NCBI GenBank assembly: GCA_902799185.1
Contig: CADBZO010000014.1
Coordinates: 59,711 to 103,526 of the forward strand
Direction of reading: 5' to 3'
Length of the DNA stretch: 43,816 nucleotides
Origin: an uncultured Bacteroidales bacterium
GTDB lineage: Bacteria; Bacteroidota; Bacteroidia; Bacteroidales; Paludibacteraceae
Shown: positions 12,524-38,714 of the stretch, piece by piece
How positions within the stretch are numbered: position 1 is the first letter of the stretch
Layout: the number at the start of each line of letters is the position of its first letter
Made by a program: the position numbers and the translations under genes
Notes under the pieces: generated by a model
Database searches by the model: none
What the model was told of the DNA's origin: nothing
What the model saw: the letters and a program-made list of their open reading frames with translations, nothing else

Positions 12524-13449
12524 TGAGCCGTCTGAGAGCCTATCCGATGATTGTATTGCTGCTACCGGTGGTAGTGGCAATACTGCTTTTTGTAGAGAAG
12601 CCCGGGCGCTATCCTGCCAAAGCGGCTCCCCATGCGATGCAGGAGCGGCTCTACAGGCGTCTGGAGGCGGCAGGGCTGAGCGGGGACGAGTTAGCGACAA
12701 CCGGTGCGTTGACCTTAGGTTACAAGGAGGAGCTGGGCAAAGAGCTCCGGCGGCATTTCCAAGCCTCGGGTGCGGCACATGTGCTCGCCGTGAGCGGTCT
12801 GCATACCGGTATCATCTACGGGGTGCTGGTATGGGTGCTGACCCTCGGCGGAAGGCGCAAACCGATGTACGAAGACCGATGGGGCAGACGGCTGCTCGGC
12901 ACAGTGATTATCAGTGCGATGTGGGGATACGCATGGCTGACCGGGATGACGCCGTCGGTGGTGCGCGCCGTGCTGATGGTGACGATTTTCGAGACAGGCA
13001 AAATGTTTTACCGCAGAGCCTTCTCGCTCAACACGGTAGCCGCAGCGGCGGTGCTGATCCTGCTGGTGAGACCGACAGACCTGTGGAGCGTCAGTTTCCA
13101 GCTCAGTTTCGCTGCCACGGCAGCGATTGTACTGTTAGCTAAAGAATGCGAATTGTACCTTCACCGGAAAGATTGGCTTCATGGTTGGTACGGCAGGGGG
13201 CTTTCCTGGATAGCCGGAACCGTCATCATCTCCATCGCCGCGCAGATAGGCACGCTGCCTATTACGATGTATTATTTCGGCCGGGTTTCCTGTTATTTCC
13301 TGCTGACGAACCTGATTGTCCTGCCGATAGCTACCGTCCTGGTGCCGTCAGGGCTGGTGACGATGGCTTTAGGGGGCAGCACGGTCGGGGTGCCGGCGGG
13401 CAGAATCACCCGGTCTCTGGCGTGGGGTATGAACCATTCCGTAGAATGA
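12523..13449 (+). CDS. Minimal ComEC/Rec2-family membrane protein (competence core only)
   Basis: 308 residues with many hydrophobic segments. The ComEC/Rec2 core is identified by AHVLAVSGLHTGIIYGVLVWVL (the HxLAxSGLHxG signature), GMTPSVVRAVLM, and LWSVSFQLSFAATAAIVLL. Full-length ComEC forms the inner-membrane DNA uptake channel and is usually 600-800 residues, with an N-terminal OB-like domain and often a C-terminal beta-lactamase-like domain. Here only a short lead-in precedes the core, and the protein ends at NHSVE with neither flanking domain. It begins in the rpe stop codon and ends just before the next promoter. It may be a naturally reduced form or a truncated gene; the frame is intact. 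Confidence 0.85.
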   Translation: MSRLRAYPMIVLLLPVVVAILLFVEKPGRYPAKAAPHAMQERLYRRLEAAGLSGDELATTGALTLGYKEELGKELRRHFQASGAAHVLAVSGLHTGIIYGVLVWVLTLGGRRKPMYEDRWGRRLLGTVIISAMWGYAWLTGMTPSVVRAVLMVTIFETGKMFYRRAFSLNTVAAAAVLILLVRPTDLWSVSFQLSFAATAAIVLLAKECELYLHRKDWLHGWYGRGLSWIAGTVIISIAAQIGTLPITMYYFGRVSCYFLLTNLIVLPIATVLVPSGLVTMALGGSTVGVPAGRITRSLAWGMNHSVE

Positions 13450-16500: not shown

Positions 16501-19500
16501 AACTGCACTACACCAAGCCGTTCCTGCACGTGGACCAGCATATGATGGCCAATAACCAGACCTATTACTGGCATGGAAAACTCTACGGTCCTTTCGATGG
16601 AGAGGAGTTCAAAAACCGCGAGAGCGACACGATCCTGTATTTCCATAATGACAATGAGAACCAGACGAACCCCGTCAACGGCTGCGACAGTATCTACCGC
16701 CTGGAGCTGCGTATCTCCGACACGTTCATGGAGAGGAGCTACCGTACCATCTGCGATATCGACTCTATCCATTGGAGAGACACGGTCATCGTCGGTTACA
16801 AATGGGCTTCCGACGAGTCCTTCGACATCCGTCTCTCTGCTGCCGGCATCCACTCCATCGACGACAGTCTGCAAACCCTCTCATTGCCAAAACGCGACTC
16901 TATCTACCGGCTCATCGTCACGCAATACCCGACGCATGAGAAGACACTCGACCGGGTAGATCTCTGTCAGGACCAGACCGTCTATGAATGGCTCCGCGAG
17001 GATGACGGCTCCCTGATCCAACGCATCACACTGCCGCAAAAGAACAGTTATCCGTTTGATACCGTCTATACCGATACCCTGACGACCAAGACAGGCTGCG
17101 GTTGCGACAGTATCCTGCATCTGCCCATACGTATCTATCCCACCTACCAAGAGACCGTCACCGCCGTCATCTGCGAGTCGGAGCTGCCTTACGTATGGGA
17201 GTTGCGCGACAGCGAAGGCACGCATGACCGGACTGTTCAGATCCCCGAGGAAGAACGCGGCACACTCTGGACTTACGTCCAAGACGACACGCTGCATACT
17301 ATCCATGGCTGCGACAGTATCGTCCATCTGGACTTGACCGTCAAACCGACGACATACCGGTACATGACCGTTGTACAGTGCGCCAACGAACCGCCCTGCA
17401 GGTACGGAGAGAAAGGCAAGACCGCTTCTGTCAGCGGGACCTATCGCGACACGCTCGTCACCAAGAACCGGTACGGGTGCGACAGTATCGTCGTGCTTGA
17501 CCTGACCGTAAACCCCGTCTATTCGTTCCATACCGATACAGCCATCTGTCAGGGAGCCGCCTTCACATGGCGGCGTCATGAGGAGCACACCCTCAAAGAC
17601 GAGGACGGGAACAAGACAACCATCATCCCTACCGGCATAAGCGGTTCTTTCGTCTATACCGATTCAATGAAGACCGCCGCAGGCTGCGACAGCGTGTGGA
17701 CGCTAAACCTGCGGGTAGAAGCCATCTACACCAGCCCGGTAAGTATCACACAACGCCGTTTCTGCGAGAACGACACCCTGCATTTCTACAACAGGATCGT
17801 TTACGGAGCCAAATGGCCGGAGAAACCGGATGGGATAACCGGTCTTGCCGTACCGGCAGGCAGTTTCTCGCTGGAGTTCGACTCCACCTATACCGATACG
17901 ACCATGACCGGTTGTGACAGTATTGTACAGCACCATTTCACGCTTTACCCCACCCGTTCCTATCTCACGACCGATACCGTCTGCCAAGACACCGTGGACA
18001 CCCGTTATACATGGACCAACCACCCGGACGTAGCAATCTACCGAAATGTTGCGGGCACCAGGACCTATGTCGATTCGCTCAAGTCGGGTCATACGGATTG
18101 TAACTGCGACAGTATCTTTGAGTTGCAACTCACCGTCCTGCCTTCTTACCACCGGCATTTCAGCCATGTCATGTCGGATGAAGAAGTCTATACCTGGGAA
18201 AACGTGACCTACGGAGGTGTCAAGACTACGAAGACGCATGATATCACCGTGACCCAAGATACCATCATCATTGCCGGATATGAGACAAAGAAAACAGGTA
18301 CCCATTCGTGCGACAGTATCCTGGAGCTGACTCTCCGTATCGGCAAGGTGACACGCGACACCACTTACCGGTATGTGTGCGCCGATGAGACCTCCTACGA
18401 ATGGATGCGCGCCGACAAAGAGGGTGTGATGGAGCTCCGGAAGACGATCTCCGGCACCGACCTGCCGGCGGTAGAGACACATAAGTATTTCTACGACTCG
18501 CTCCGCACCGCTATGGATTTCGATTCTATCTTCGTACTGGATTTATACCGTGCGCCTACCCATTTCCCGGACACAACGGCGCATGTATGCCAAGGCGAGC
18601 CTTTCGTCTGGAAGCGTCATGACGGTGTTGCGAACCATGTGGAGGATGCTTATGGCAATCCTGTAGCGCAGATTTCCACGGAGCACCACGGTGAGTTTAT
18701 CTATTACGACCGCTTGCAGACCGACTCTTTCGGTTGCGACAGTGTCTGGACGCTGCATCTGTATGTGGATACCGTTTATGCAGCGACTACGGACACCGCT
18801 ATCTGCCAGAACGAGCCTTTTGTATGGTTGCGTCATGAGGGGCACACCCTCAAAGACGTTCATGGGAATGACGTGACGACGATTCCTACCAACCACAGCG
18901 GTCTGTTTATCTATACCGACTCCATGCAGACCGTAGCCGGTTGTGACAGCATATGGACACTGCGGCTGCGGGTGGACACCGTCTATACCACCCCTGTAAC
19001 CGTCACCGAACGGTCCTTCTGCGAGAACGACACCCTGCATTTCTACGACCGGGAGCTGTTCGGAGCCAAGTCGCCGCTGAAACCTGCGGGCGAGGCCGGT
19101 TATGGCGTGCCTGCGGACGAGAAGTACTATACTTTTGAGTTATCGTACACGGATAGTACTATCCACGGCTGCGACAGCGCCGTGACACATCGTTTCACCG
19201 TCTATCCCACCTATTATAAAGAGCATCAGGACAGTGTCTGCCAAGGCTCGGCTTATGTCTGGGAGAGGCATACATCGGAGTATATATGGGATGTTCGCCA
19301 GGGCAAGCGCATCCGCCTGACCGAGATTCCCACGAACCTCAAGAGCGGTGTGGAATATACTTATATTGACTCGCTGCATACGGACGCCTGCCCGGTTTGC
19401 CGTGAAGGACAGGGAGGATGTGACAGCATATGGGTGCTCAAACTGAGGGTGGACAGCGTGTATTACCGGGAGGACAGAATCACCATGTCGGACGAAGAAA

Positions 19501-22500
19501 GCCGCAAATGGCAGCACACCGTCTATGTAGGCAGCAAGGTCAACACCGACACGCTGGATAGGAGTTATTGGTTCACGCCCGAAGAAACGGACCACCGTAT
19601 TGTCCGCATCCCGGAGGGACAGATTCTCAATGAATTCGACGCTGTCTATCCCACCATTCACGAATGTGACAGCACGATCCATCTGCGCCTGCTGGTAGGT
19701 CCTACCTTCCGCGATACGATAGAACGATGGACGTGTGACAATGAACCCTTCCATTGGTATCATGAGGGGGATCCGGAGCAGCGGGAGGCGCGTACGGACC
19801 TTACGATTCTTACCCCCGGACTGTATTACGACAGCCTCGTGACAAAACAGTTCGGTTTTGATAGTATCTATGTCCTGGTTCTGCATAATTATCCTACGTT
19901 CCGGAAGGAGGCCTATGACACCATCTGCCAGGGATCACCTTATAGCTGGTCCGGTCATACCGAGTCCGACCGTTTCTACTCGGTAGAGGCCCGTCAATGG
20001 GTGGACAGAACGGCTATCCCGACGGATGTAGCAGGCCATTTCACGTATATCGACAGTCTCAAGACCCATGAGCCGGGTACTCACCCCGACCGGATCTTGC
20101 ATGACGGTTGCGACAGCATATGGACGCTGCATCTGTTTATCCCCGATACCTACCATTTCTACGACACCGTGGACTTGTGTGAGAACGACTCGGCGCAATG
20201 GCAGGGAATGCTCTTCACCGGCAGCCAATACACCGCATACGGCAAGACCTATGATGCGGCCGGGTTTGACAGTATCCTCACTGACCTGCCGGAAGGTACG
20301 TACTACCGGGATATACGCCGGCCGACGGTTTACAACTGTGACTCCGTCTATCATCTCACACTCCATGTGCATGAAGTGGCGCATACGGATTCGTTAGACT
20401 CGGTATGCCAGGGTACGCCGTTCTTCAACCCGAACGGGAACCGCGGACAGGGTATATATATGGATACGCGCCGCGTGGGTACGTATGTCTCCGTAGATAC
20501 CATTTCCTCTTTGGTCACGGGCTGCGACTCCATCGTCACGCTCACGCTCCGCGTCGATTCAGTCTATGACTACCGCCAGCACTATATCTTCTGCCAGGAT
20601 ACGGTCAACACCGAACGCGAATGGATTGACGAGGAGGGACATCCCCATACCTTCAAGATGGATGTGTCACGAGCCGGAGATTTCGATTTCACGGAGCAGC
20701 ATACTACCATCCATGGCTGCGACTCGGTCTATGGCGTCACTTGGCATGTCAACCCCATATACCGCTTTGACTCCACCTATGTCATCTGCCAGAACGAGCG
20801 TATCAGCTGGCAGGGGAAATGGTACGCCGGCGATGAGTACGGATGGGGATACGAACGGCTACAAGGAGACCGGTATGATACCCACCGCGACTCTATCTAC
20901 CATCATTATGTAGAGGGAGACTCCATCTTGGCGGTAGGCACGTATTATGACACCGTCCATTTTGTCACCACTACCGGTTGTGACTCTACTTTCTACCTCC
21001 GGCTCGTGGTGAATCCGGCAGGTCATTTCATCCGGAATGAGGTAGCCTGCGACCGGGATGGATACCATGTTTTCTATACCACGGATGCCGAGGGAGAGCA
21101 TACCGACACCATCTTCTTCTCCCCCACCACGCGGATGTACGACGAGACACGGAAAGACACCATGCACTATGAAGCGGAACGGCATCTGAAGGCCGTCAAC
21201 GGAGGCTGCGACAGTACCATCCATTTCCACCTCACCGTGCATCCTACCTATGAGTTTGTCACGCGGGCGAAGATCTGCTGGGGGGACTCCTACACATGGC
21301 GCGGCAAGGACTATATCGCAACCGGCGTCTATTATGACTCTATCGACGGAGGTACCGACTACTGGCATTGCGACTCCGTCTATGTCTTGGAGCTCTATAT
21401 GAAACCTGTTACCATCGTACCTATCTACGACACGATATGTGACGACATGACTTATGAGCATGTCGATACGCTCTGGTACACCAACGGCTCCCACTCGCTG
21501 GTAGAGACGCTGGTATGGAAACCGGGCATGACGATTCCGCAGACCTACACCGATGTCATCTTCCGCAGTCCTATTGACGGCTGCGATAGTATCATCTACC
21601 GTTATTATCTGCAAATCAACAAGACCTATCTCATTCGCGATACAGCCGCTATCTGCTCCAACGAGTCCTATACCGCCTCCCACGGCCATACCTACACCGG
21701 ATATGAGTATGAACTCGAACCGGGAGAGATCGGCCGTTCGTTCGATACCGTCATCGTGGAGCGGCTCAACTCTGTCCATTTATGCGACTCGGTCTTCGAA
21801 TTCCATGCTACCATCCATCCGGCTTACCGGCATATCGACTATATCACCATCTGCGACGACGGAGAGGCCGACTGGAGAGATCATCATTACGAGGGAGCAA
21901 GGACAGGCGACACGCCGGGAACCGGTCTGGCAGCAGGCGAATATATATTCTACGACTCGCTCCGGACCGCCGCACATGACTGCGACTCCATCTATGAGTT
22001 GCGTCTCACTGTCACACCTACCTATCTCTTTGAGGAGCGGATCACCAAGTGCGCTGACGAGCAGCTCTCCTGGAGAGACCAGCGCCTCGACCATATGCCG
22101 GCAGGTGAACATTTCCTCTACGACAGTCTGACGACAGCTGTCTTCGGATGCGACTCAGTCTATCATCTCTACCTCACCGTGCTGGATACGACGTTCGAGA
22201 TACGACACGACTCGATATGTCTCACGGAGAGTTATGATTTTCACGGGGTAACACTGACACAAGCCGGAGCCTATAAGGACACGACACTCAATGAGTGGGG
22301 CTGCAACCATTTCACCTATCTCTATCTGGCGGTGATCGAACCTACCGTTCCTACTGCATGGACAGACTCCGTCTGCGCCGATGACCAAGCCTACGACCTG
22401 TATTACACCTATACCGGTGAACATGATCCGATAGCTTATTCGGTCTTCTATGACGAGGACGGCCATGCCAACGGTTTCGAGGATCTCATTGACATACCTA

Positions 22501-23216
22501 TCACCACGCCCGACGAGCTGTCGGTGCTCACGCTGCCTATGCCGCTGCGCAACGGGGACAAGACGCAGTATCCGCGACCGGATTACTATCAGATACGCCT
22601 TGTTCTGAATAACGGTATCTGCGTCAACCCCGACCTCTGCGCTACGGATACGGCTATCGTCCTCTCCTACCCCTCATGGCTGACAGAGCAGCGTTTCGGA
22701 GATGTCATTGCCCTTTATAACGAACGTTATAACGGCGGTTACACCTGGGATTCGTACCAGTGGTACCATGGTGACGAAATGTTGGTGGGACAGACGCGCG
22801 AGTACCTCTATATCCCTACCGGACTCGTCGTGGGAGACCAATACCATGTCCGTCTTACGCGAAACGGCGAGACGCAGGATTTCCAGACATGTCCTATCAC
22901 GGTAGTGGGAGATCCGGTGGTGAATAATTTTGCACCTACGATGGGCTATCTCTCTGTCGTTCCTACTTGCATCGTTACCGGTAACCCGGTTGCACATATC
23001 CTCTCGCGAAAGGATGGTACCTACCGTGTTACCACCACGGAAGGCCAACTCGTCTCGGAGGGTGTCTTCCGAGCCGATGTCACGCCGCTCCAACTGCCAG
23101 CGGTCAGCGGTATGTATGTGGTACAGGTCTGGTCGCCTGACACGCCGGAAGAACCTTATCGTTCCATTAAAGTAATTGTAAAAGAGAAATGCGAAAACTG
23201 CAATATATCCTTCTGA
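13515..23216 (+). CDS. Giant secreted repeat protein (3233 aa) with IgGFc-binding-like N-terminus and T9SS tail
   Basis: A GTG start opens a signal peptide (MKKRIIHILLFVLML, cleavage near CASA-IQL). Residues about 30-500 resemble the IgGFc-binding N-terminal domain: TEGNDFWLTFM, DATLIIPTKYMGKEYYV, ATEDNTEVTITP, LSGSKICADKPVAVFNGNQ. From about residue 750 to 2930 there are about 32 units of roughly 70 residues, each ending in a form of GCDSI-x-x-L-x-L-x-V and usually beginning with a Cys-containing C-x-G/N-E-x-x-x-W. The Cys pattern suggests one or more disulfides per unit. The last about 85 residues (GTYRVTTTEGQLVSEG, LPAVSGMYVVQVW, RSIKVIVKE) fit a type A T9SS sorting domain. It is probably a surface-attached or secreted fibre. 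Its partner gene overlaps its end by 28 bp. The binding target is unknown. Confidence 0.85.
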   Translation: MKKRIIHILLFVLMLAPCASAIQLQSADPNWIGNNVNFGTTEGNDFWLTFMNNATINPETYPDITFELKVAVSARQDTHVKFEVDGVVVHEKDVKADETYIYDMKDLYARIYLLESEVANRYKGVRVYTEENDKLFSCFNYSRNGEAGESSRDATLIIPTKYMGKEYYVQTYYEDTYSSQFAIVATEDNTEVTITPAYQTLSGHAKGVPFTVVLQKAGDTYLVASALHMSANVNVDLSGSKICADKPVAVFNGNQQTSIPFKEAYSKDYLSEQILPITQWGTDFYLALMSSTLSNYTILTAAYPDTHVKISVYNPVNGRTTVTDTTLQAGQTLQPIAVSDPRRMEVVIHSDRPIMCYDYTSSAAVNNVCEDNGFDEVCYTYGDPANALMPSWAHRVKIMNFFTHELDPMDEDAPKVYFVYMVTKWADRDKLTIDGQGNYGSYFQPFHTNGDEEMAYASIPVTNTDSHYHTIETTGDGFVGMVYGLSDAQGYLYTLGYSPEPFRDTLFVANTGNVMSPSSYDVSPRLDQGWYQRQWEEWLTGHERLDTVQVCEGETVKWLLQSPISKQTDPVDWYIYDVTGTDQTIYKTYPEPSFRKENAAKDAATDENWLFQWEHTFEMPDESALPPEERTPFLEYEIQAVMHHKHVICTGLPDDLDTLRTVVRVTRVYHDTTYQIICMGDTLKFFEDSLPHQTYEGEGTALHDEPASRVNQRDSTLFIGDKTDGDNTHDFEWKARPGENVFTRHYQTRYGCDSTYTLYLFVCDTFRTIDTLHLCKNEAITYLPDDPDHRKKYKGAEYEGDGYLVTRDTVDTILAKTKFCACQLEPYRSKYPAFEGCDSIFELHIFLHDIYRDTIVDTMCYNRKPDSVYVWPIQKGTDEKRITKADPGMHYDAGLRAWEGFFSDTLRTVSCPQCNKGKGCDSINVLHLFIPEPFYHDTIDSICLWDYDKETRTQDTNIYRWTNHRAGAEFVELPESGDYYDSCLTRFGCDSIYHLKLHYTKPFLHVDQHMMANNQTYYWHGKLYGPFDGEEFKNRESDTILYFHNDNENQTNPVNGCDSIYRLELRISDTFMERSYRTICDIDSIHWRDTVIVGYKWASDESFDIRLSAAGIHSIDDSLQTLSLPKRDSIYRLIVTQYPTHEKTLDRVDLCQDQTVYEWLREDDGSLIQRITLPQKNSYPFDTVYTDTLTTKTGCGCDSILHLPIRIYPTYQETVTAVICESELPYVWELRDSEGTHDRTVQIPEEERGTLWTYVQDDTLHTIHGCDSIVHLDLTVKPTTYRYMTVVQCANEPPCRYGEKGKTASVSGTYRDTLVTKNRYGCDSIVVLDLTVNPVYSFHTDTAICQGAAFTWRRHEEHTLKDEDGNKTTIIPTGISGSFVYTDSMKTAAGCDSVWTLNLRVEAIYTSPVSITQRRFCENDTLHFYNRIVYGAKWPEKPDGITGLAVPAGSFSLEFDSTYTDTTMTGCDSIVQHHFTLYPTRSYLTTDTVCQDTVDTRYTWTNHPDVAIYRNVAGTRTYVDSLKSGHTDCNCDSIFELQLTVLPSYHRHFSHVMSDEEVYTWENVTYGGVKTTKTHDITVTQDTIIIAGYETKKTGTHSCDSILELTLRIGKVTRDTTYRYVCADETSYEWMRADKEGVMELRKTISGTDLPAVETHKYFYDSLRTAMDFDSIFVLDLYRAPTHFPDTTAHVCQGEPFVWKRHDGVANHVEDAYGNPVAQISTEHHGEFIYYDRLQTDSFGCDSVWTLHLYVDTVYAATTDTAICQNEPFVWLRHEGHTLKDVHGNDVTTIPTNHSGLFIYTDSMQTVAGCDSIWTLRLRVDTVYTTPVTVTERSFCENDTLHFYDRELFGAKSPLKPAGEAGYGVPADEKYYTFELSYTDSTIHGCDSAVTHRFTVYPTYYKEHQDSVCQGSAYVWERHTSEYIWDVRQGKRIRLTEIPTNLKSGVEYTYIDSLHTDACPVCREGQGGCDSIWVLKLRVDSVYYREDRITMSDEESRKWQHTVYVGSKVNTDTLDRSYWFTPEETDHRIVRIPEGQILNEFDAVYPTIHECDSTIHLRLLVGPTFRDTIERWTCDNEPFHWYHEGDPEQREARTDLTILTPGLYYDSLVTKQFGFDSIYVLVLHNYPTFRKEAYDTICQGSPYSWSGHTESDRFYSVEARQWVDRTAIPTDVAGHFTYIDSLKTHEPGTHPDRILHDGCDSIWTLHLFIPDTYHFYDTVDLCENDSAQWQGMLFTGSQYTAYGKTYDAAGFDSILTDLPEGTYYRDIRRPTVYNCDSVYHLTLHVHEVAHTDSLDSVCQGTPFFNPNGNRGQGIYMDTRRVGTYVSVDTISSLVTGCDSIVTLTLRVDSVYDYRQHYIFCQDTVNTEREWIDEEGHPHTFKMDVSRAGDFDFTEQHTTIHGCDSVYGVTWHVNPIYRFDSTYVICQNERISWQGKWYAGDEYGWGYERLQGDRYDTHRDSIYHHYVEGDSILAVGTYYDTVHFVTTTGCDSTFYLRLVVNPAGHFIRNEVACDRDGYHVFYTTDAEGEHTDTIFFSPTTRMYDETRKDTMHYEAERHLKAVNGGCDSTIHFHLTVHPTYEFVTRAKICWGDSYTWRGKDYIATGVYYDSIDGGTDYWHCDSVYVLELYMKPVTIVPIYDTICDDMTYEHVDTLWYTNGSHSLVETLVWKPGMTIPQTYTDVIFRSPIDGCDSIIYRYYLQINKTYLIRDTAAICSNESYTASHGHTYTGYEYELEPGEIGRSFDTVIVERLNSVHLCDSVFEFHATIHPAYRHIDYITICDDGEADWRDHHYEGARTGDTPGTGLAAGEYIFYDSLRTAAHDCDSIYELRLTVTPTYLFEERITKCADEQLSWRDQRLDHMPAGEHFLYDSLTTAVFGCDSVYHLYLTVLDTTFEIRHDSICLTESYDFHGVTLTQAGAYKDTTLNEWGCNHFTYLYLAVIEPTVPTAWTDSVCADDQAYDLYYTYTGEHDPIAYSVFYDEDGHANGFEDLIDIPITTPDELSVLTLPMPLRNGDKTQYPRPDYYQIRLVLNNGICVNPDLCATDTAIVLSYPSWLTEQRFGDVIALYNERYNGGYTWDSYQWYHGDEMLVGQTREYLYIPTGLVVGDQYHVRLTRNGETQDFQTCPITVVGDPVVNNFAPTMGYLSVVPTCIVTGNPVAHILSRKDGTYRVTTTEGQLVSEGVFRADVTPLQLPAVSGMYVVQVWSPDTPEEPYRSIKVIVKEKCENCNISF
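15760..22330 (+). repeat. About 32 tandem 'GCDSI' protein repeats (about 70 aa each)
   Basis: Each unit ends in a Cys-Asp-Ser motif (GCDSIYHLKL, GCDSVWTLHL, GCDSIVTLTL and similar). Degenerate units lack the Cys or Gly (PKRDSIYRL, AMDFDSIFVL, QFGFDSIYVL) and the last reads GCNHFTYL. Repeat identity is low overall, so the array is old, apart from a clearly recent two-unit duplication. Confidence 0.9.
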
Positions 23217-26113: not shown

Positions 26114-26144
26114 TTGTATAATCCAATTATTTTTCGTACCTTTG
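26114..26144 (+). promoter_or_regulatory. Bacteroidetes-type promoter of the antiporter-barrel-TamB operon
   Basis: -33 TTG (26114-26116), 20-bp spacer, -7 TACCTTTG (26137-26144). It decides the start of the next gene: the Met at 26142 overlaps the promoter, so the ATG at 26193 is used. Confidence 0.85.
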
Positions 26145-26192
26145 CAGGCGAAAAGGGCAGCACGTTCGATTCGAAACATATATATATCTGAT

Positions 26193-27554
26193 ATGGTACA
26201 AGATTTATACATCTTAATGATTACGGCAGGTGTCGTAGCCCTGCTTTTCAAGTTACTCAAGCAACCGGTAGTGTTGGGTTACATTGTAGCCGGTATTCTG
26301 GTCGGTCCTCACCTCTTTGGAGAGAACCTCGTCAATGCGGAGAACGTAGAGACCTGGGGGAATATCGGTGTGCTCTTCGTCCTCTTCTGCATCGGTCTGG
26401 AGTTCCGTCTCAAGAACCTCTTCGAGTCCGGCAAGGTGGCGCTCATCGGTGTCTCAACCATCGTTGGCGGTATGCTTCTTCTGGGGTACGGCGTAGGTAA
26501 GTTCTCGGAGCTGAACACGATGAACTCCCTCTTCCTGGCGGCTATGCTCTGTATGTCCTCCACCACCATTGTGATGAAGGCTATCGACGAAGCGGGGCTG
26601 ACCAAAGCGCGGTTTGTCAAAGGCGCCACCTCTATTCTTATCTTTGAGGATATCATCGCCGTCGTGCTCTTGGTGCTCCTCTCCTCCATCGCGGTCAAGA
26701 ACAGCTTCGAGGGCACCGTACTGCTGGAGAAAGTAGGCGTGCTGGCTATCACCCTCGCGGTGTGGTTCATAGTCGGTATTCTGATTATCCCTACCCTCTT
26801 CCGATGGGTGCGGCCGTATCTGAATGACGAGATCCTCATCGTCCTCTCGCTGGGCCTCTGCCTGGGGATGGTGCTGACGGCCGAAGAGGCAGGCTTCAGC
26901 TCCGCCCTCGGTGCGTTTGTGATGGGTATGATCCTGGCGGAGACCAAGGAAGCACACCGGATAGAGCACCTCATGGCGCCGCTCAAGAACGTCTTCGCCG
27001 CCATCTTCTTCGTCTCGGTCGGTATGATGATCAACCCCGCCTCGCTGGTGACTTATTGGGACTCGATACTCTTCGTGTCGCTCGTCATCATCGTCGGTAT
27101 GATCCTCTTCGGCACTCTCGGATGCTGGTGGGGTGGCGAGACCCTCAAGGACGCCATGCAAACCGGTTTCTCCTTCGTCCAGATAGGTGAGTTCTCGTTC
27201 ATCATCGCCGCCCTGGGTTCCAAACTCGGCGTCACTGACCCCGCTATCTATCCTATCATCGTAGCTTCCTCGGTGCTCACTACTTTCCTTACCCCGTATA
27301 TCATGAAGGCTACCGTACCTTGCTATACGTTCCTATACAACCATGCCTCGCCGCGTCTCAAAGCGAAGATCGATGCCCGGGAACAGGCGGTGGCAGAGGC
27401 GGAGAAAGCCGCGGCAGAGCCTAAGGAGAACAACGCGCCCTCCTCGGCGGACAAAGTGCGGCAAGCCGTACGGAAGACCGTCGTCACCAAACGCGTGGTG
27501 AACCTCTTCCTCAAGAATATGAGCGAAAACGACAATCCTAACTCACAAGAATAA
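26193..27554 (+). CDS. CPA2-family monovalent cation:proton antiporter (Kef-type membrane domain)
   Basis: 453 residues, beginning MVQDLYILMITAGVVALLFK. About a dozen hydrophobic helices are evident. Family motifs are LKQPVVLGYIVAGILVGPHLFG near the N-terminus, GVLFVLFCIGLEFRL, the STTIVMKAIDE helix, FEDIIAVVLLVLL, and EAGFSSALGAFVMGMILAET. The protein should exchange K+ or Na+ for H+ across the inner membrane. It lacks the C-terminal TrkA-N/RCK nucleotide-binding domain of KefB/KefC and instead ends in a charged Ala/Glu/Lys tail (about 405-453). The stop shares one base with the next ATG (TAATG). Confidence 0.92.
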   Translation: MVQDLYILMITAGVVALLFKLLKQPVVLGYIVAGILVGPHLFGENLVNAENVETWGNIGVLFVLFCIGLEFRLKNLFESGKVALIGVSTIVGGMLLLGYGVGKFSELNTMNSLFLAAMLCMSSTTIVMKAIDEAGLTKARFVKGATSILIFEDIIAVVLLVLLSSIAVKNSFEGTVLLEKVGVLAITLAVWFIVGILIIPTLFRWVRPYLNDEILIVLSLGLCLGMVLTAEEAGFSSALGAFVMGMILAETKEAHRIEHLMAPLKNVFAAIFFVSVGMMINPASLVTYWDSILFVSLVIIVGMILFGTLGCWWGGETLKDAMQTGFSFVQIGEFSFIIAALGSKLGVTDPAIYPIIVASSVLTTFLTPYIMKATVPCYTFLYNHASPRLKAKIDAREQAVAEAEKAAAEPKENNAPSSADKVRQAVRKTVVTKRVVNLFLKNMSENDNPNSQE

Positions 27555-28378
27555 TGAAAAAACTATTCCCGTTCTTCCTGCTCTTCGTCCCGCTGATGGC
27601 GACAGGGCAGACCCCGGAGACCGCCAAAGACCCCCATATCATCGACGGCCTCACCTCTGTTGCTGCGATTGCCGGCGAGACCAAGACGCCGGAGACCGTT
27701 CAGGACACTGCGGCTGCGCCTGCCCTCCCGGAGATACCTCTCTGGAAGAAAAAACTCTACTACGGCTATAACTTCGACATCTATTTCCACAGCGACTCCA
27801 AAAAGGACAGCCGGGAGAACGGCTGGTCATTCGCCCTCACCCCGGAGATAGGATGGAAACTGACGGAGAAGATTTACCTGGGTATGCGGTTCGGCGGTAG
27901 CTACGCCAATTATAAGAGTTCCTATCTTGTGTCCGTGATAGACACCTCCTATTACACCGATCTGCGTATTCATGTAGGCTCATGGGAAGTAGCGCCGTAC
28001 GTGCGGTACAAGATGAAATCGCTCTTTAACGACAAGGTGGGCATCTGGCTGGAGGCGCACCTCTATGCCGGCATGGACTTCCCCCGCGTGACGGAAGGCA
28101 AGACTGCGTACACCGATTACGACGGATTGCGTTATTCCACCACATACGGGTTCCAGGTCTCGCCGGTCATCACCTATCAGTTCAACCGAAAGAGTACCTT
28201 CCAGATATTCTTCTCCATCCTCTCGCTGGGCTACAGCGGTACCATGTACAGCTATGCCGGTCACCGCGAGTTCTCGAATGATGTCATCATCTTCTCCGGC
28301 AAACTGAGCAACCTCCTTTCCAACCAATTCACACCGGGTCTGTACGGCTTGCGGTTCGGTGTGCAGAAGAGTTTCTAA
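27554..28378 (+). CDS. Outer-membrane beta-barrel-like protein of unknown family
   Basis: 274 residues. A signal peptide (MKKLFPFFLLFVPLMATGQ) is followed by a Thr/Ala/Pro-rich linker (about 20-60). The rest shows alternating amphipathic strands with aromatic ends: KLYYGYNFDIYFH, SFALTPEIGWKL, IYLGMRFGGSY, YGFQVSPVITYQF, FQIFFSILSLGYSGTMY, and a final LYGLRFGVQKSF with terminal Phe, typical of BAM substrates. I do not recognise a specific family. It overlaps the antiporter stop by one base and is directly followed by the GTG of the TamB fusion, so it may work with, or be a substrate of, that machine. Confidence 0.7.
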   Translation: MKKLFPFFLLFVPLMATGQTPETAKDPHIIDGLTSVAAIAGETKTPETVQDTAAAPALPEIPLWKKKLYYGYNFDIYFHSDSKKDSRENGWSFALTPEIGWKLTEKIYLGMRFGGSYANYKSSYLVSVIDTSYYTDLRIHVGSWEVAPYVRYKMKSLFNDKVGIWLEAHLYAGMDFPRVTEGKTAYTDYDGLRYSTTYGFQVSPVITYQFNRKSTFQIFFSILSLGYSGTMYSYAGHREFSNDVIIFSGKLSNLLSNQFTPGLYGLRFGVQKSF

Positions 28379-31300
28379 GTGAAGCGTCTCCTGTCTCTGT
28401 TGTGGAAGATCCCGCTTGCGCTGACAGGCGTACTCACGGGCGTGGTGTTGCTACTGCTGATAGCGGTAGCCACGGTGCTCTATGTCCCTTCCATTAGGCA
28501 GAAAGTACTGGAGAAAGGTATCGCTGTCGCCAACGGGCAGACCGACTGGGACATCGACCTCGGGCGCATGTACCTCTCCCCTTTCCACCATTCGCCGGAG
28601 GTTCTCTACCTCGCGTACAAAGGCGAGGAGGACCTGCCTGTGCAGGTGGAGATTGACAGCCTCTTTGTCGGCCATCGCGGCCGGGACACTCTGGCCTATG
28701 TCCGCACCCTCCGTCTGTCGGCGCTGCTTAAAACACGAAACGCTCCGCTCTTTGAGGAGGGGAAAGGTCTCAACCTGCCGCCCATTGCGGTGGACACCCT
28801 CCTTCTTGACCGCACGGCTTTCCATTCCGGCACGCTCATCAAGACCGTTGGCGTGGATGTGGACCTGGGCGGACTCAACGTCTCCAGCCCGGAGATCCGT
28901 ATTGCCGAAGGCCGTTACCCGCTCCATGGACTGAGACTCAGCGATGTCTCCGTGGGCATCGACCTCCGTCCAGACACGGCGCAGAAGGCGCAGGACACCG
29001 CGAAAACAGAGCCTGCCCCCCTGCGTCTATGCTTCGACCTGCCGGACGGAGAACTCCGTAACGTCCGTTTCCGTCTCACCCCGCTGGGGCTGGATATACA
29101 GACCGGCTCGCTCTCTACCGAGGCGCTGGTGGACGTAGGGGCCAACCGCTACGACGCACGGCGGCTGGAGGTAGGCGCTTTCGCCCTCTCTCTCGGCGCA
29201 CTGCGCATACCCGCCGACACCATCCATGGTAGTGCCGTAGCGGATATTCAGAATAACCTCATCACCTCCCACGGCATCTATGTCCGCTCCTCGGAGTTAG
29301 GCGCCACGGCGGATCTCTCCTACGCCTCCATGGACCTGGCGGCCATGCGGGCCGAAGCGGTCGGGGACGCGGAGTACCAAGGTTCCAAAGCCTCGCTGAG
29401 AGCGTCCTATGACATCGACGACGAGGCCTATGACGCTACCGTACATATCGACCGTGTCAACCTCCGGCCTTTTCTCCCGGACGCGCCGCATATAGCTCTC
29501 GCCGGAGATATGGAGGCTGCGGGTAAAGGTATCAATCCCAAACGCCCCCTCTCCTCGCGTGTCAGCGTACGGCTGGACGAAGCCGTCTATGACACCTACG
29601 ACCTCTCCCGTACCTCCATACACCTGGCTACGGACACCGTTACCTCTCTCTCTCTTGCCACGCCCGGCATAGACCTCTCCGCCGCCACGCCGATGCCCCT
29701 TTTCACGTTCGTCAACAGCCTCCCGCCGTTGATACAGACCGTCACGGACTCCGCCGTACTCGCCTCGCTCATCTCGCTTGGGGACCTCACCGTCCTGGAT
29801 ACTATCCGAACCCGTATCCCGGCGCTGGACGCCGACATAGCCCTGCGGCAAGGCAGTCTCCTCCAGCCTTTCATCGACTCCCTCCATCTGAATCTGGACA
29901 GGGCGGACCTTACCCTCCGTTCCGATACCGCAAAGACGGACATCGCCTTTGACGCAGCCGCCACGCCACTGAACCTGCAGCCCTCGGCGGTAAACCTCAG
30001 GCTGGCTCTGACCGAAGGCGTGACCTCCGCTTCACTCACCGCCAATACGGCCCTTACAGACGGCGTGATGAGCGTCGAAGACCTCTGTACCGAAGCCGCG
30101 CTGCGGATGAACCTCACGCGCTACGGACGCAAGCTCAAAGGCACCGGACGCCTCACGCTGGACAGCCTCTCCTATCAGTCGATGGACCTGGGCTCGCGCG
30201 CCATAGACATCGCCCTCTCGCCGTCGCAGGAGTACCCTGACGCCTTGCGCGCAGAGGTGCAGGCGGACGACATACCCCTTTCTATCCTGGACGGCTTTGT
30301 ACATCTGCCGGATATAGACATACAGGGAGCCGTACGAGCCTCTGCGGCGGTGGACGGACTGCCGCGGAAAACGGACATCTCTGCCGAGGTGCAGCCTATA
30401 GGCGTCGCCGCGGAATACAAGCCCTACGGGATAGGTATATCGCTCGGCGGGACACCTATCGTCATGTCGCATAACAAAGTGGACCTCAACGGTCTGCCGG
30501 TCTATGCCGCGGATAGCACGTTCGTCGCCCTCTACGGCGGACTCGACCTCAACACCATGCGGATGAACGTCACCCTGGAGGCGGATAGTTTTGCCCCGGT
30601 CAAACTGCCTCAGGGCGGTCCGTTTCCTGTCTATGGCGAACTGGCGGCAGACCTCCGCGGCTCGGTCACAGGCCCCCTTGACAGCATCCTCGCCGACGTG
30701 GATATCACCGTCCTTCCCACTACCGACATCACCTACCCCATTGACAAGAAAAACCTGGCGCAAGTCAAGCCGTACGGTACTGTCAATGTGCGTTTTAACA
30801 CCGCCGGAAACAAGCTCGACTTAGGCGGCCGCATCAACGTCGATGACGGACTCGTCCGGTACTCGCCGAAGCTCTATCCCGTCATGCCTTTCCGGGTTGA
30901 TTCGGGTAGCCGGGTGACCTTCAACGGACCCATAGGAAAGACCCGCCTCGACGTCTCGGCATCCCAGCAGGTCAAAGCCGATGTGGAAGCCGAGGGGGAA
31001 GACACACGGCGGGTGGATTTCCGGACCGGCGTACGCGTCAACGGCGTGGTTGACTCCATTGGCATCGAGTCCATCGGTTTCTTCCTCGAAGCCCCTGACG
31101 ACGAACGCATCACACGCGAACTGGCGTCCGTCGATGAGGGCACACGCGAAGGACTCGCCGCTACACTCCTCGCTACCGGCATGTATGTCGGTGAGAGCAA
31201 CGAGGCGGCGCAACGCGATGGATATGCCCTCACGTCCATCATCAACAGCCGCATCAACGCCGCCATGGCGAACTCTAAAATAGGCAAGTTCATGGACGTG

Positions 31301-32992
31301 GATTTCAGCAGCGGACAGACACACCACGCCGCCGGCAAGTCCAACGATATGAATATCGCTATCAGCAAGTCGTTCTTCAAAAACCGGCTGCGTATCACGG
31401 TCGGTTCCACCATCTCCGACAACCCCGATGTGAACAAGGCCAACGGCCTCTTCTCCTCCCTCACCGCCGACTACAAGATTCTCCCCAAATCTCAAATCTC
31501 AATTCTCAATTCTCAATTCTCAAATACCTCCTTGCTCCTCCGCCTCTACTCTCAGCGCGACTATAACAATATCCTGGAGGGCGAACTGCTCAAATCCGGA
31601 CTCAGCGTGCGGGCGGACAAGGAATGGCGGAGACGCGAACTGTTCCGCGGAGACAGCATCACCCGCACCTACGGACTGACGGCGGACGCAGGCGTGGCCT
31701 ACCGTTCCAACAACAGCATCGGTCCGGACCTCACCCTCAAGCACACCATCCGCAACATCCTCGGCAACGGCGAGTCCTTCACCCTCAAAGCCAACGGAGC
31801 GTACTACTGGGCGTTGAGGAACAGACACCCCGGAGACCCCAAGAAAACCGACACATACAAACTCGGGCTCAACGCCTCGCTCGTCTTCCCCTATCTGCAT
31901 TGGACGGGCGACAACAACCCCGAGGGAGACACGCGCTACATGCTCGGCTACCAGTATGAGAATATCGCCGGAGGATACGGCGTGCATAAGCTCTCAGGCT
32001 CCTTCACCTATTTCATCCGCTCCGCCCGCAACTCCTTCATCACCCATGCTTTCACGCCTTTCTCGCTCTCCGTCGTGCTCGTCAAAGCCGAATCGGAGAA
32101 CCTGCTGGACAAGGCCGAAGAGTACCCCCAGCTGATCAAGATCCTCGCCGGAAACGAGTTCGTGCCCTCCGTCGGATATAACTTCATCTATAATGACTAC
32201 CGCGCCAAACGGACGGTGAACACTATGCTCGACCTCGGTGTCAAGGAGTCCGGCAACCTCATTAACGCTCTCTACTGCCTCTTCGGGCAGAAATGGAACG
32301 ACCCCAAGAAACTGGGAGGCATCACTTTCAACCGCTTCGTCAAACTCTCGGCAGAGCTGCGGAACAAGTTCAACCTCACCGAGCAAGTCTGCATCGCTAC
32401 GCGCCTCTTCGCAGGAGCGAATATACCGCTCGGCAACTCTTCCGCAGCACCCCTGTCCGAAGCTTTCTATACCGGCGGACCGAACAGCCTCAGGGCTACC
32501 TCGCCCTCCTCCTACGGACCGGGAAACTTCTACTCCGCCAAATACAACCAGCCCTTCTTCCATGCCGGCGACGTCAAACTGGAGGCGAACTTCGAACTCC
32601 GTTTCCCTATCGTCTGGAAACTCTACGGAGCCGCGTTTGTCGATGCAGGAAACGTATGGAACTGGACCTCCACCGCGGACCTGTTCACGGCGGCGGGACT
32701 GGAAGATTACAAATCCAGAATGGAGCTCCCCGACGACCTCCATGACGGTATCCTCAACAACCCCGACTGGGCACGCCAGATAGCCCTTGGAACGGGTGCC
32801 GGACTCCGTCTGGATATCGACGGACTCGTCATCCGCCTCGACATCGGTGTGGGTATTCACGCCCCCTACCAGACCTTCAAATACGACAAGGACGGCAACC
32901 CCGACAAGACGCAACCTATCTCTACCTATTTCAACATCCCCTCTGCCCTTGACGCCCTCCGCGTCAACTTCGGCATCGGCTACCCCTTCTGA
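28379..32992 (+). CDS. TamB-type translocation module fused to a C-terminal Omp85 (TamA/BamA-like) barrel
   Basis: One uninterrupted 1537-residue frame from a GTG directly after the previous stop. Residues about 10-35 are a single inner-membrane helix (MKRLLSLLWKIPLALTG). A very long beta-rich AsmA/TamB-like region follows. The TamB C-terminal (DUF490) signature is at about 840-1085: PFRVDSGSRVTFNGPIG, REGLAATLLATGMYVG, INSRINAAMANSKIG, LRITVGSTISDNP, YNNILEGELLKSGLSVRADKEW. From about 1090 an Omp85 surface-antigen barrel follows: FTYFIRSARNSFI, FYTGGPNSLRATSPSS-YGPG, FVDAGNVWNW, GTGAGLRLDIDGLVIRLDIGVG, and a C-terminal GIGYPF. POTRA domains are absent. TamA and TamB are normally separate inner- and outer-membrane partners. 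The RGW/RGY loop motif reads RAT here. A spacer-like insert sits at residues about 1038-1052. Confidence 0.85.
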   Translation: MKRLLSLLWKIPLALTGVLTGVVLLLLIAVATVLYVPSIRQKVLEKGIAVANGQTDWDIDLGRMYLSPFHHSPEVLYLAYKGEEDLPVQVEIDSLFVGHRGRDTLAYVRTLRLSALLKTRNAPLFEEGKGLNLPPIAVDTLLLDRTAFHSGTLIKTVGVDVDLGGLNVSSPEIRIAEGRYPLHGLRLSDVSVGIDLRPDTAQKAQDTAKTEPAPLRLCFDLPDGELRNVRFRLTPLGLDIQTGSLSTEALVDVGANRYDARRLEVGAFALSLGALRIPADTIHGSAVADIQNNLITSHGIYVRSSELGATADLSYASMDLAAMRAEAVGDAEYQGSKASLRASYDIDDEAYDATVHIDRVNLRPFLPDAPHIALAGDMEAAGKGINPKRPLSSRVSVRLDEAVYDTYDLSRTSIHLATDTVTSLSLATPGIDLSAATPMPLFTFVNSLPPLIQTVTDSAVLASLISLGDLTVLDTIRTRIPALDADIALRQGSLLQPFIDSLHLNLDRADLTLRSDTAKTDIAFDAAATPLNLQPSAVNLRLALTEGVTSASLTANTALTDGVMSVEDLCTEAALRMNLTRYGRKLKGTGRLTLDSLSYQSMDLGSRAIDIALSPSQEYPDALRAEVQADDIPLSILDGFVHLPDIDIQGAVRASAAVDGLPRKTDISAEVQPIGVAAEYKPYGIGISLGGTPIVMSHNKVDLNGLPVYAADSTFVALYGGLDLNTMRMNVTLEADSFAPVKLPQGGPFPVYGELAADLRGSVTGPLDSILADVDITVLPTTDITYPIDKKNLAQVKPYGTVNVRFNTAGNKLDLGGRINVDDGLVRYSPKLYPVMPFRVDSGSRVTFNGPIGKTRLDVSASQQVKADVEAEGEDTRRVDFRTGVRVNGVVDSIGIESIGFFLEAPDDERITRELASVDEGTREGLAATLLATGMYVGESNEAAQRDGYALTSIINSRINAAMANSKIGKFMDVDFSSGQTHHAAGKSNDMNIAISKSFFKNRLRITVGSTISDNPDVNKANGLFSSLTADYKILPKSQISILNSQFSNTSLLLRLYSQRDYNNILEGELLKSGLSVRADKEWRRRELFRGDSITRTYGLTADAGVAYRSNNSIGPDLTLKHTIRNILGNGESFTLKANGAYYWALRNRHPGDPKKTDTYKLGLNASLVFPYLHWTGDNNPEGDTRYMLGYQYENIAGGYGVHKLSGSFTYFIRSARNSFITHAFTPFSLSVVLVKAESENLLDKAEEYPQLIKILAGNEFVPSVGYNFIYNDYRAKRTVNTMLDLGVKESGNLINALYCLFGQKWNDPKKLGGITFNRFVKLSAELRNKFNLTEQVCIATRLFAGANIPLGNSSAAPLSEAFYTGGPNSLRATSPSSYGPGNFYSAKYNQPFFHAGDVKLEANFELRFPIVWKLYGAAFVDAGNVWNWTSTADLFTAAGLEDYKSRMELPDDLHDGILNNPDWARQIALGTGAGLRLDIDGLVIRLDIGVGIHAPYQTFKYDKDGNPDKTQPISTYFNIPSALDALRVNFGIGYPF
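31489..31534. repeat. Spacer-like low-complexity insert in the TamB fusion
   Basis: Units CAAATCTCAAATCTC followed by three AATTCTC units keep the frame and encode KSQISILNSQFSN in the middle of the conserved TamB C-terminal region (between TADYKILP and LLLRLYSQRDY). Confidence 0.7.
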
Positions 32993-36662: not shown

Positions 36663-38714
36663 ATGACTAACCGTTATTTCTACCAAGAAGATATAGCCAC
36701 ATTCCTCGCGGAAGATACAGACACTATCTTCGGTAAGATGTCTCGTGCAGATGAGATGGATACCGCGTCCACTCAGAAGTTCGCTTGGGAGCAAGAAATA
36801 ACCATTATGAAGAACTTGCTTGCCACTTATTCCAACGAGCCCGCACAAATCATCTTCGAATATACCATTCCGCGTTTAGGTAAACGCATCGATGTGGTGG
36901 TTCTTCTTCGTCAACGTGTTTTTGTAGTGGAATTCAAAGCCGGTGAAGAAGAATTCAAGCACCAAGACATAGATCAGGTACTCGACTATGCCTTAGACCT
37001 CAAGAATTTCCACCAAGGAAGCGCCGACCGATGGATCATCCCTATTTTGGTTGCAACCGAAGAAACAGCCTTTTCTACCCTCTGCCAACCCTCGCATTAT
37101 GATGATGGTATCTATGAGCCTCTGCTAACGAATGCAGCTCATCTAAAAGATGTTTTTGAGTTGGTTCTATCCCAGCCCATAGCCCCTAAGCAATATGCTG
37201 TCTCTTTGGATGATTGGTCGCGTAGTCGTTATGCGCCGACGCCCACTATCATTGAGGCTGCACGGTCGCTCTATCTCAATCATAGCGTAGAGGAAATCAC
37301 TAAAAGCGAAGCGGAAGGCGCGCAGTTAGAAACCACTACGCGCTACGTGCGTAAAGTTATCCGTGAAACGAAAGCCCGCGGAGGCAAGAGTATCTGCTTC
37401 GTTACAGGCGTACCCGGAGCCGGTAAGACCTTAGTTGGTCTAAATATAGCCGTACAACAGGAGAAACAAGACTTAGCTGTTTATCTCTCAGGGAACGGAC
37501 CTTTAGTGCAAGTGCTGACAGAAGCCCTGACACGCGACAAACAGGCACAGGAGAAGGAGAATGGAAAGAAGATCACCAAGAAAGAAGCAGAACGCGAAGT
37601 AAAGCGTTTTATACAAATCATCCACCGCTACCGCGATAATATGCTCAACAAGGTAAAAGTAGTGAATGGTACTCTGGAGATTGACCCTACGAAGGAATTA
37701 AAAGACCAAGAAGCCGGTTATGGTGAGGTGGAGAATATTGCTATTTTCGATGAAGCACAGCGTTCATGGGACAAAGAGCACATCGCAAATTGGCTGAGCC
37801 GTAAGAAAGGTTTCGCAAACTTCCCCATGTCGGAAGGTGAGTTCCTCATTTGGTCTTTGGATCAGAGACCCGATTGGGCGGTTATTGTTTGCCTCGTTGG
37901 TGGCGGTCAGGAAATCAACACAGGTGAAGCCGGTATAGGTGAATGGATACGTGCGCTCAATGAGACCTTCCCCAATTGGAAAGTTTATATATCCTCGCAA
38001 CTCACCGCTAAAGAATACGCTGAGGGAAAAGTTTCTGAACTTCTGGAGAATAACCCCAATAAGACTTTTTCTGACGACTTGCATCTGGCGGTTTCGATGC
38101 GTTCGTTCCGTGCAGAGAGTTTGTCCAATATGGTGCATTATCTACTCGACGGAGACGCAGAAAATGTCCGCAAGATATATACAGACATCGCCGACCGCTA
38201 CCCGATTGCCTTAACGCGTGATCTGAACAAGGCCAAAGAATGGCTGCGTACCCATGCACGAGGAAACGAGCGCTACGGTCTGTTGGTTTCCTCTAAAGCC
38301 TATCGCCTCAAACCGCTTGCTATTGATGTCCGCTGCAAACCAGACACGGTGCATTGGTTCTTGGATGATATCAACGATGTTCGTTCGTCACTTTTCTTGG
38401 AAGATGCTGCCTCAGAATTTGATGTGCAGGGTTTAGAGTTGGATTGGACTTGCGTGGTTTGGGATGGTGATTTGCGCTATACGCCAAACGGATGGAATTT
38501 CTTCGAATTCAACGGTGGTAATAAGTGGAATAATATCAAGAAATCAGACCGCCAAGCATATCTTATTAACGCCTACCGCGTCCTTCTTACACGTGCTCGC
38601 CAAGGCATGATAATCTGTGTCCCCGAAGGCTCACCCGATGACCACACCCGATTGCCTGAATACTACGACAGCACATACAACTATCTTAAGAGTTTAGGGA
38701 TTGAAGAAATCTAA
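36663..38714 (+). CDS. DUF2075 (Schlafen group 3-like) helicase with N-terminal nuclease-like domain
   Basis: 683 residues. The N-terminal about 130 residues have GKRIDVVVLLRQRVFVVEFKAG, a PD-(D/E)XK-like core (Asp77, Glu90, Lys92). The ATPase part has Walker A GVPGAGKT (249-256) and Walker B IAIFDEAQRSWD (DEAQ, 363-366), then ICLVGGGQEINTGEAG (motif III-like), SMRSFRAESLSNMVHYLL, and the C-terminal YRVLLTRARQGMIICVP motif VI, all typical of DUF2075 SF1-like helicases. Predicted activities are nucleic-acid-dependent ATPase and nuclease. Similar nuclease-helicases occur in anti-phage loci; that role here is inferred from island context. It is preceded by an A-rich leader and the HTH remnant. 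Confidence 0.87.
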   Translation: MTNRYFYQEDIATFLAEDTDTIFGKMSRADEMDTASTQKFAWEQEITIMKNLLATYSNEPAQIIFEYTIPRLGKRIDVVVLLRQRVFVVEFKAGEEEFKHQDIDQVLDYALDLKNFHQGSADRWIIPILVATEETAFSTLCQPSHYDDGIYEPLLTNAAHLKDVFELVLSQPIAPKQYAVSLDDWSRSRYAPTPTIIEAARSLYLNHSVEEITKSEAEGAQLETTTRYVRKVIRETKARGGKSICFVTGVPGAGKTLVGLNIAVQQEKQDLAVYLSGNGPLVQVLTEALTRDKQAQEKENGKKITKKEAEREVKRFIQIIHRYRDNMLNKVKVVNGTLEIDPTKELKDQEAGYGEVENIAIFDEAQRSWDKEHIANWLSRKKGFANFPMSEGEFLIWSLDQRPDWAVIVCLVGGGQEINTGEAGIGEWIRALNETFPNWKVYISSQLTAKEYAEGKVSELLENNPNKTFSDDLHLAVSMRSFRAESLSNMVHYLLDGDAENVRKIYTDIADRYPIALTRDLNKAKEWLRTHARGNERYGLLVSSKAYRLKPLAIDVRCKPDTVHWFLDDINDVRSSLFLEDAASEFDVQGLELDWTCVVWDGDLRYTPNGWNFFEFNGGNKWNNIKKSDRQAYLINAYRVLLTRARQGMIICVPEGSPDDHTRLPEYYDSTYNYLKSLGIEEI

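Follow-up and report, generated by a model that had tools for sequence, protein, structure and literature searches.

A single open reading frame in an uncultured Bacteroidales bacterium joins what its sequence strongly indicates to be an accessory TamB2 to the barrel of its neighbor TamL2. TamB and TamA/TamL are envelope-building proteins that are normally separate. The frame lies within a 43,816-nucleotide stretch of contig CADBZO010000014.1 (assembly GCA_902799185.1, family Paludibacteraceae), the whole of which was analyzed and is called the window here. A preliminary description had read a 4.6-kb frame of the window as TamB and an Omp85 barrel in one polypeptide. The 1537-residue frame itself, sequence profiles, an AF2 model, and orthologues all confirmed this. 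The order within the frame is almost certainly an inner membrane anchor, then a predicted TamB-type rod and a TamB C-terminal domain, and then a TamL/Omp85 barrel without POTRA domains (Table 1).

Table 1. Coordinates, in the window, of the fusion gene, its parts, and the gene directly upstream
Feature	Position	Strand	Basis or remark
TamB2-TamL2 fusion gene	28379..32992	+	One open frame, GTG start, 1537 aa
N-terminal inner-membrane signal-anchor helix, approximately residues 5-33	28391..28477	+	AF2 helix 2-35; hydrophobic stretch
Predicted TamB beta-rich periplasmic rod, approximately residues 58-905	28550..31093	+	AF2 strands; hhalign to TamB2
Pfam TamB (PF04357) match	30701..31498	+	47.6 bits, cut-off 22.4
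TamB C-terminal domain, residues 909-1089, helices then six strands	31103..31645	+	DSSP of AF2 model; alignment of TamB2 C-termini
Last TamB strand, residues 1070-1089	31586..31645	+	DSSP; proposed counterpart of the TamB strand paired to beta1 of TamA (passages cited from PMC12800296)
Junction, residues 1088-1094	31640..31660	+	Alignments; short, length variable among orthologues
POTRA-less TamL2 barrel, residues 1095-1537, ends GYPF	31661..32989	+	Profiles, AF2, fold search
Loop 6 motif RAT, residues 1372-1374	32492..32500	+	Alignment
Upstream 274-aa OMP-like gene, C-terminus GLRFGVQKSF	27554..28378	+	TAA stop abuts fusion GTG

The N-terminal half is a divergent TamB

The Pfam TamB model exceeded its cut-off in a six-frame search of the genome (Table 1). 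TamB was not listed in a plain Pfam hmmscan of the fusion protein, and PF04357 matched the fused frame in just 5 of 11 fusion genomes. The TamB half is thus divergent. In hhalign profile-profile comparison, residues 17 to 1095 aligned with standalone TamB2 over 1,099 columns (E 4.7e-70). The same half aligned with TamB1 over 486 columns (E 7.2e-14), but this shorter span says little because nine of the ten TamB1 rows were C-terminal pieces. The profile-profile comparison settles the identity of the N-terminal half as TamB. Its TamB homology ends near residue 1085, as described before.

The inner membrane signal anchor is present as a hydrophobic N-terminal helix, after which AF2 predicts many strands in a long row. 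Within the TamB C-terminal domain of the AF2 model, DSSP assigned five helices of at least four residues, not two, followed by six strands at residues 973 to 1089. The chain does not end after the last of these strands but runs on into the barrel. A fold search with the N-terminal half returned weak matches, mostly to LptD and other barrels.

The C-terminal half is a TamL2 barrel without POTRA domains

The Omp85 model PF01103 matched residues 1318 to 1535 (61.3 bits, cut-off 24), and the NCBIfam TamL model NF052279 matched residues 1097 to 1537 with 306.5 bits, which is below the full-length cut-off of 400 and so short of the curated TamL threshold. The NF052279 match covered profile positions 335 to 747 of 747, in agreement with the absence of POTRA domains noted earlier, and its start fell at 333 to 337 in all 11 fusion genomes. 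The fusion has thus lost the signal peptide, the lipobox, and the three POTRA domains of TamL2. No lipoprotein signal or Cys takes their place; the protein begins with the TamB anchor, and sequence of TamB type continues to the barrel.

A barrel had been expected after about residue 1090, and AF2 predicted 16 long strands plus three short ones from residue 1092 on. The frame also has the terminal Phe seen before. The closest solved folds were Omp85 proteins, with TamA first, tied with FhaC and BamA. Searching the PDB sequences with a profile of the C-terminal half yielded four matches, all at E 0.13 or above.

In loop 6, the alignment placed RAT where RGY or RGW is usual, just as the preliminary description had it. 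All 21 TamL1 rows have RGW and all 12 TamL2 rows have RAF; G324 has RAF, and the unlabeled G332 has RAW. In contrast to the RAF of TamL2, loop 6 of the fusions is mostly RA[A/S], and the pattern R-A-[A/S/T] held in 16/16. We parsed the motif in 67 of 73 fusion sequences (a stricter filter had removed six loci that are kept in the count of 79 unbroken loci given below). Among these 67, the second residue was A, S, or G, and the third was never aromatic. The Arg was invariant across the 78 rows of the structure-alignment set (the structure alignments took in 77 and 57 of the 79 unbroken loci, plus the window).

The fusion site coincides with the TamB-barrel contact of TamAB

The C-terminus of standalone TamB2 proteins consists of a strand (..EGE..TGVGFVV..ELF) followed by a basic tail. 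In the sequence alignment, barrel strand 1 of the fusion stands where this tail would be. It aligns with strand 1 of TamL2 down to an SN..GP motif, which TamL1 is without. We could parse the distance from the TamB EGE to the barrel YRSN in 80 of 84 sequences (one genome, L070/L145, was counted twice). It was 41 residues in 65 of these, 43 in 7, 50 in 4, 38 in 1, and 33 in 3. This spacing of 33 to 50 residues suggests that the junction is a turn of variable length. The mean frequency of the top residue was 0.75 for the last TamB strand and 0.85 for beta1, with 0.71 for the linker between them.

The AF2 model has a strand at 1070 to 1089, two residues, and a strand at 1092 to 1109, and the pLDDT of this block is 80 to 88. 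The model as a whole is middling (mean pLDDT 71.9, pTM 0.56); values are 42 to 65 in the last barrel strands and 42 to 80 in the TamB C-terminal strands before the hairpin. The pairing with beta1 was read from the strand order of this model alone, and AF2 favors hairpins between neighboring strands.

In the 2026 cryo-EM structure of TamAB from E. coli, according to the passages cited from PMC12800296, the final strand of TamB and beta1 of TamA pair to form a hybrid barrel, and the loop of the last TamB hairpin is bonded to the first extracellular loop of TamA. These contacts suggest that the TamB C-terminus lies near the periplasmic start of beta1. The modeled fusion resembles this hybrid-barrel state: its C-terminal helices and six strands would end with a strand that meets beta1 of a 16-strand Omp85 barrel. 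However, E. coli TamAB consists of two proteins, uses POTRA docking, and has two states, whereas the fusion has a covalent hairpin and no POTRA domains. The same passages report that TamB contacts all three POTRA domains and that loss of POTRA2 was lethal in the test strain.

We also considered whether the fusion is cut after export, so that the halves work as an ordinary TamB2-TamL2 pair. A linker that varies in length and sequence is consistent with this. However, the spacing is 8 residues shorter in three orthologues, which leaves few residues between the strands. Furthermore, a freed barrel would have no lipid anchor, and it would be missing the POTRA domains needed by the two-protein E. 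coli complex (PMC12800296, passages as above). We regard cleavage as decidedly unlikely.

The fusion is an intact gene of Paludibacteraceae and relatives

We looked for a stop or frameshift near positions 31600 to 31700, which would undo the one-polypeptide reading, and found none. The frame was also unbroken in 79 of 80 related loci by a filter that additionally demanded 1200 aa and a YPF end; the exception was L081. These loci were the best 80 of 188 relatives. Their contig titles name Bacteroidales, Paludibacteraceae, Bacteroidaceae, or Bacteroidia, and the hosts in those titles are ruminants, one horse excepted. Median dN/dS, from non-independent pairs, was 0.093 for the TamB C-terminal part, 0.106 for the junction, and 0.081 for the barrel.

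A survey of related genomes found the same fusion in relatives; it sought relatives of this protein rather than TamB-Omp85 fusions of unrelated origin. Within the genus, 37 of 61 genomes (the window's own included) have it, 34 as a frame of at least 1366 aa and three (G024, G048, and G060) in pieces, each with one piece reaching a contig end. In the family, 84 of 300 genomes matched at E 1e-40, and these represent 4 of 33 genera. Across the order, fusion frames occurred in 5 of 393 genomes, from three families, and 67 further genomes matched only with a separate barrel protein. At E 1e-70, a phylum sample of 395 genomes returned the window's own genome only. Two fusion matches each were seen in G301 (L213 and L214), G317, and G310, the second match of G310 being a 482-aa frame.

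The window's genome is a draft (55 contigs, 86.74% complete), which by itself might suggest an assembly or frameshift artefact or a pseudogene. However, one frame in 79 of 80 related loci means that this is not an assembly error. With three families represented and dN/dS near 0.1 as well, we consider an artefact or pseudogene ruled out for practical purposes.

The fusion very likely derives from accessory TamB2 and TamL2

We examined 12 loci around the separate TamL of other Bacteroidales. TamB was directly before TamL in 11 of them, and the two genes overlap by 4 nt in 6 of these 11 adjoining pairs. The TamB proteins are about 1490 to 1650 aa (several are truncated where the fetched sequence stops), and the TamL proteins are 760 to 794 aa. 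The twelfth locus, G332, has TamL with no adjacent TamB and groups with TamL1 in the tree. The cited passages of PMC12045153 describe a TamB2-TamL2 operon in F. johnsoniae (Fjoh_1899/Fjoh_1900), found in 20 of 30 Bacteroidota species, and state that there is no insight yet into the role of TamB2/TamL2. Judging by their arrangement, the adjoining Bacteroidales pairs presumably are the published TamB2/TamL2.

The barrel tree separated 12 TamL2 sequences plus 16 fusions from 23 others (split 100/100), and the TamB tree separated 11 TamB2 sequences plus 16 fusions from 22 others (99/100). For these trees, 16 of the 84 fusion sequences were used, and the barrel tree omits TamL2 loci with a repeated gene. 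The adjoining pair of G324 fell outside the "2" group in both. By profile-profile comparison, the barrel matched TamL2 at E 4.3e-74 and TamL1 at E 1.3e-41. Together, the comparison and the barrel tree rule out TamL1 as the source of the barrel. Like the TamB2-TamL2 operon, the fusion has TamB and then TamL, and its halves group with the adjoining pairs of other Bacteroidales. Unlike those pairs, it is one polypeptide with no lipobox or POTRA domains and a TamB part about 400 aa shorter. The sequences thus strongly support an origin from neighboring TamB2 and TamL2 genes, the accessory rather than the housekeeping pair, and a single in-frame deletion between the two genes probably made the fusion. 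The fusions form one clade in both trees (100/100) on long stems of 1.16 and 1.81. This is most simply explained if the fusion arose once and then changed fast.

The preliminary description had raised the question of a separate TamA/TamL gene. TamL1 and TamB1 are present in each of the 11 fusion genomes checked, the window's own among them, although TamL1 of G004 is cut at a contig end. In these genomes, this rules out replacement of the housekeeping TAM. No standalone TamL2 was found in the same 11 genomes by profile search; the window's genome is 86.74% complete and the other ten at least 96%. Two side observations concern TAM gene content. The C-terminal 268 aa of a second canonical TamB, from either a paralogue or a second strain, stands at a contig start (G000:C29:27-785; L002, L143). 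The one-contig genome G656 (C1) has only an adjoining-pair TamL and TamB; no further copy of either exceeded the cut-off.

Measured from where the open frame begins, the TamB part is 1045 to 1247 aa in 79 of 80 fusions and 932 aa in L085. Ten standalone TamB2 sequences are 1492 to 1652 aa, although at least three of them run off the fetched sequence and G324 is not clearly TamB2. This shortening, and the 1.81 substitutions per site of the TamB part on the fusion stem, would fit a static tether or periplasm spacer without transport. However, the barrel and the TamB C-terminal domain are both strongly constrained, and mere anchoring does not need an Omp85 barrel. A static tether is therefore unlikely.

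A small OMP-like gene precedes the fusion

The gene that ends directly before the fusion GTG encodes a protein with a hydrophobic N-terminus and an OMP-like C-terminus. No Pfam family was assigned to the window's copy; OMP_b-brl_2 matched weakly in 4 of 6 relatives (best E 0.0065), and PHROGs, NCBIfam, and PDB searches with the gene gave no usable match. The OMP-like gene immediately precedes the fusion, in the same orientation, in 57 of 84 neighborhoods, the window included (85 were scanned, and L081 is without the frame). It lies no more than 45 nt from the fusion in 56 of 79.

Among 61 genus genomes, 32 have both genes, 5 the fusion only, 1 the OMP-like gene only, and 23 neither (Fisher p 5.5e-11 in a test that ignores relatedness). 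The two are on different contigs in G007 and G021, and the OMP-like gene of G055 has no trace of the fusion beside it. The two fusion copies of G301 differ in length, the short one having 1529 aa and the long one 1609 aa, and each has its own OMP-like gene upstream. Outside the genus, at E 1e-3, there was a clear copy in 1 of 8 fusion genomes and a marginal one in another, and it was missing in 6 of 8. It was found in none of 8 genomes with separate TamB/TamL pairs. Distances between OMP-like proteins correlated with those between fusions (r 0.48, 56 pairs, reached in 0 of 2000 permutations), but this is confounded by species descent, and the nearest OMP neighbor shares the fusion form in just 34 of 53 cases. 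The link between the OMP-like gene and the fusion is correlative.

These data bear on the possibility that the fusion is a dynamic one-piece insertase. The tethered TamB strand would be a placeholder that leaves beta1 for a client, and the machine would fold few OMPs, the upstream one first. The position of the OMP-like gene, its co-occurrence with the fusion in the genus, and its presence beside both copies in G301 are consistent with this, as are the invariant loop 6 Arg and the placeholder role at beta1 proposed for the TamB C-terminus in the cited passages of PMC11341756. However, a placeholder held by a tether is a competitor present at very high local concentration, the POTRA domains and the loop 6 aromatic residue have been lost, and most fusion genomes checked outside the genus have no OMP-like gene. 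We consider such an insertase possible but doubtful.

A model for the fusion protein

The preliminary description had proposed a covalent bridge between the membranes for transport of outer membrane proteins or lipids. This is partly supported: the one-polypeptide architecture stands, and transport enters here as a proposal. We think it somewhat probable that the protein is a TAM in one piece, whose hybrid barrel is covalently tethered and mainly gate-open. By sequence comparison, it lacks the basic tail of TamB2 and the lipoprotein signal and three POTRA domains of TamL2, so that the last TamB2 strand turns directly into barrel strand 1. The hairpin would bridge the gap from the TamB C-terminus to beta1; the site of fusion coincides with this gap, and the fold is the one predicted by AF2. 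Amphiphilic cargo, of which lipid is the most likely kind, may cross the periplasm by way of the inner membrane helix and TamB groove. In this proposal, covalent tethering of the gate-opening strand would keep the barrel mostly hybrid and gate-open and make POTRA docking superfluous. Cargo would exit at the seam into the outer membrane, and the protein of the abutting OMP-like gene may be a partner or dedicated client. More tentatively, the two genes may form a cassette, in which a locked, membrane-bridging hybrid barrel without gate cycle or POTRA docking is combined with one small outer membrane barrel as client or exit partner.

Some observations argue against parts of this model. Depletion of TamL in F. 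johnsoniae left outer membrane lipids largely unchanged, and deletion of tamB2/tamL2 had no growth phenotype (PMC12045153, cited passages). The invariance of the loop 6 Arg across 78 rows would fit ordinary TAM cycling as well. The OMP-like gene is missing in 5 of 37 genus fusion genomes and in most of those checked outside the genus.

TamB strands are also proposed, from modeling, to complete an Omp85 barrel in the Borrelia BAM-TAM hybrid (cited passages of PMC13382580). The fusion is similar in this respect, but the Borrelia system has a separate BamA with POTRA domains and is not fused. Omp85 architectures without POTRA domains (WD40, patatin, metallo, and noNterm) are described in the cited passages of PMC4104836 and, like the fusion, have a barrel with another or no N-terminal domain. 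Unlike the fusion, none is given a TamB domain or inner membrane anchor in the section 10 text, which describes no TamB fusion among its ten bacterial Omp85 subfamilies. We found no natural TamB-Omp85 fusion in titles or abstracts among the open-access matches listed; preprints and most subscription papers were outside the scope of this search. The words "fused" and "fusion" are absent from the main texts of PMC4494059, PMC12045153, PMC13382580, PMC11014939, PMC11341756, and PMC12800296. In the cited passages, "fusion" refers to a likeness between BamA and BamB in PMC4104836 and to tagged constructs in PMC11361582.

A natural fusion at the strand pair of the TamAB hybrid barrel gives independent evolutionary support to the view that this pairing is functional and not a trapped state. 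POTRA domains also seem to be dispensable for an Omp85-TamB machine, and the fusion might serve as a single-gene, one-to-one, covalent model for asking whether TAM cargo is lipid or protein.

Other genes in the window and in related neighborhoods

A 3233-aa ORF at 13515-23216 (+) has an IgGFc_binding Pfam domain at residues 153 to 484 (9.7e-49) and no further Pfam family at E 0.001. The ORF at 12523-13449 (+; 308 aa) corresponds to the N-terminal part of ComEC only, and the ORF at 36663-38714 (+) is of the Schlafen group 3 helicase type. A Na+/H+ exchanger-type gene occupies 26142-27554 (+), and its relatives are near the fusion, before or after it, in 45 loci. Genes resembling RND pumps and membrane-fusion proteins, named by eye, are near the fusion in 13 and 12 loci, respectively (L047 and others).
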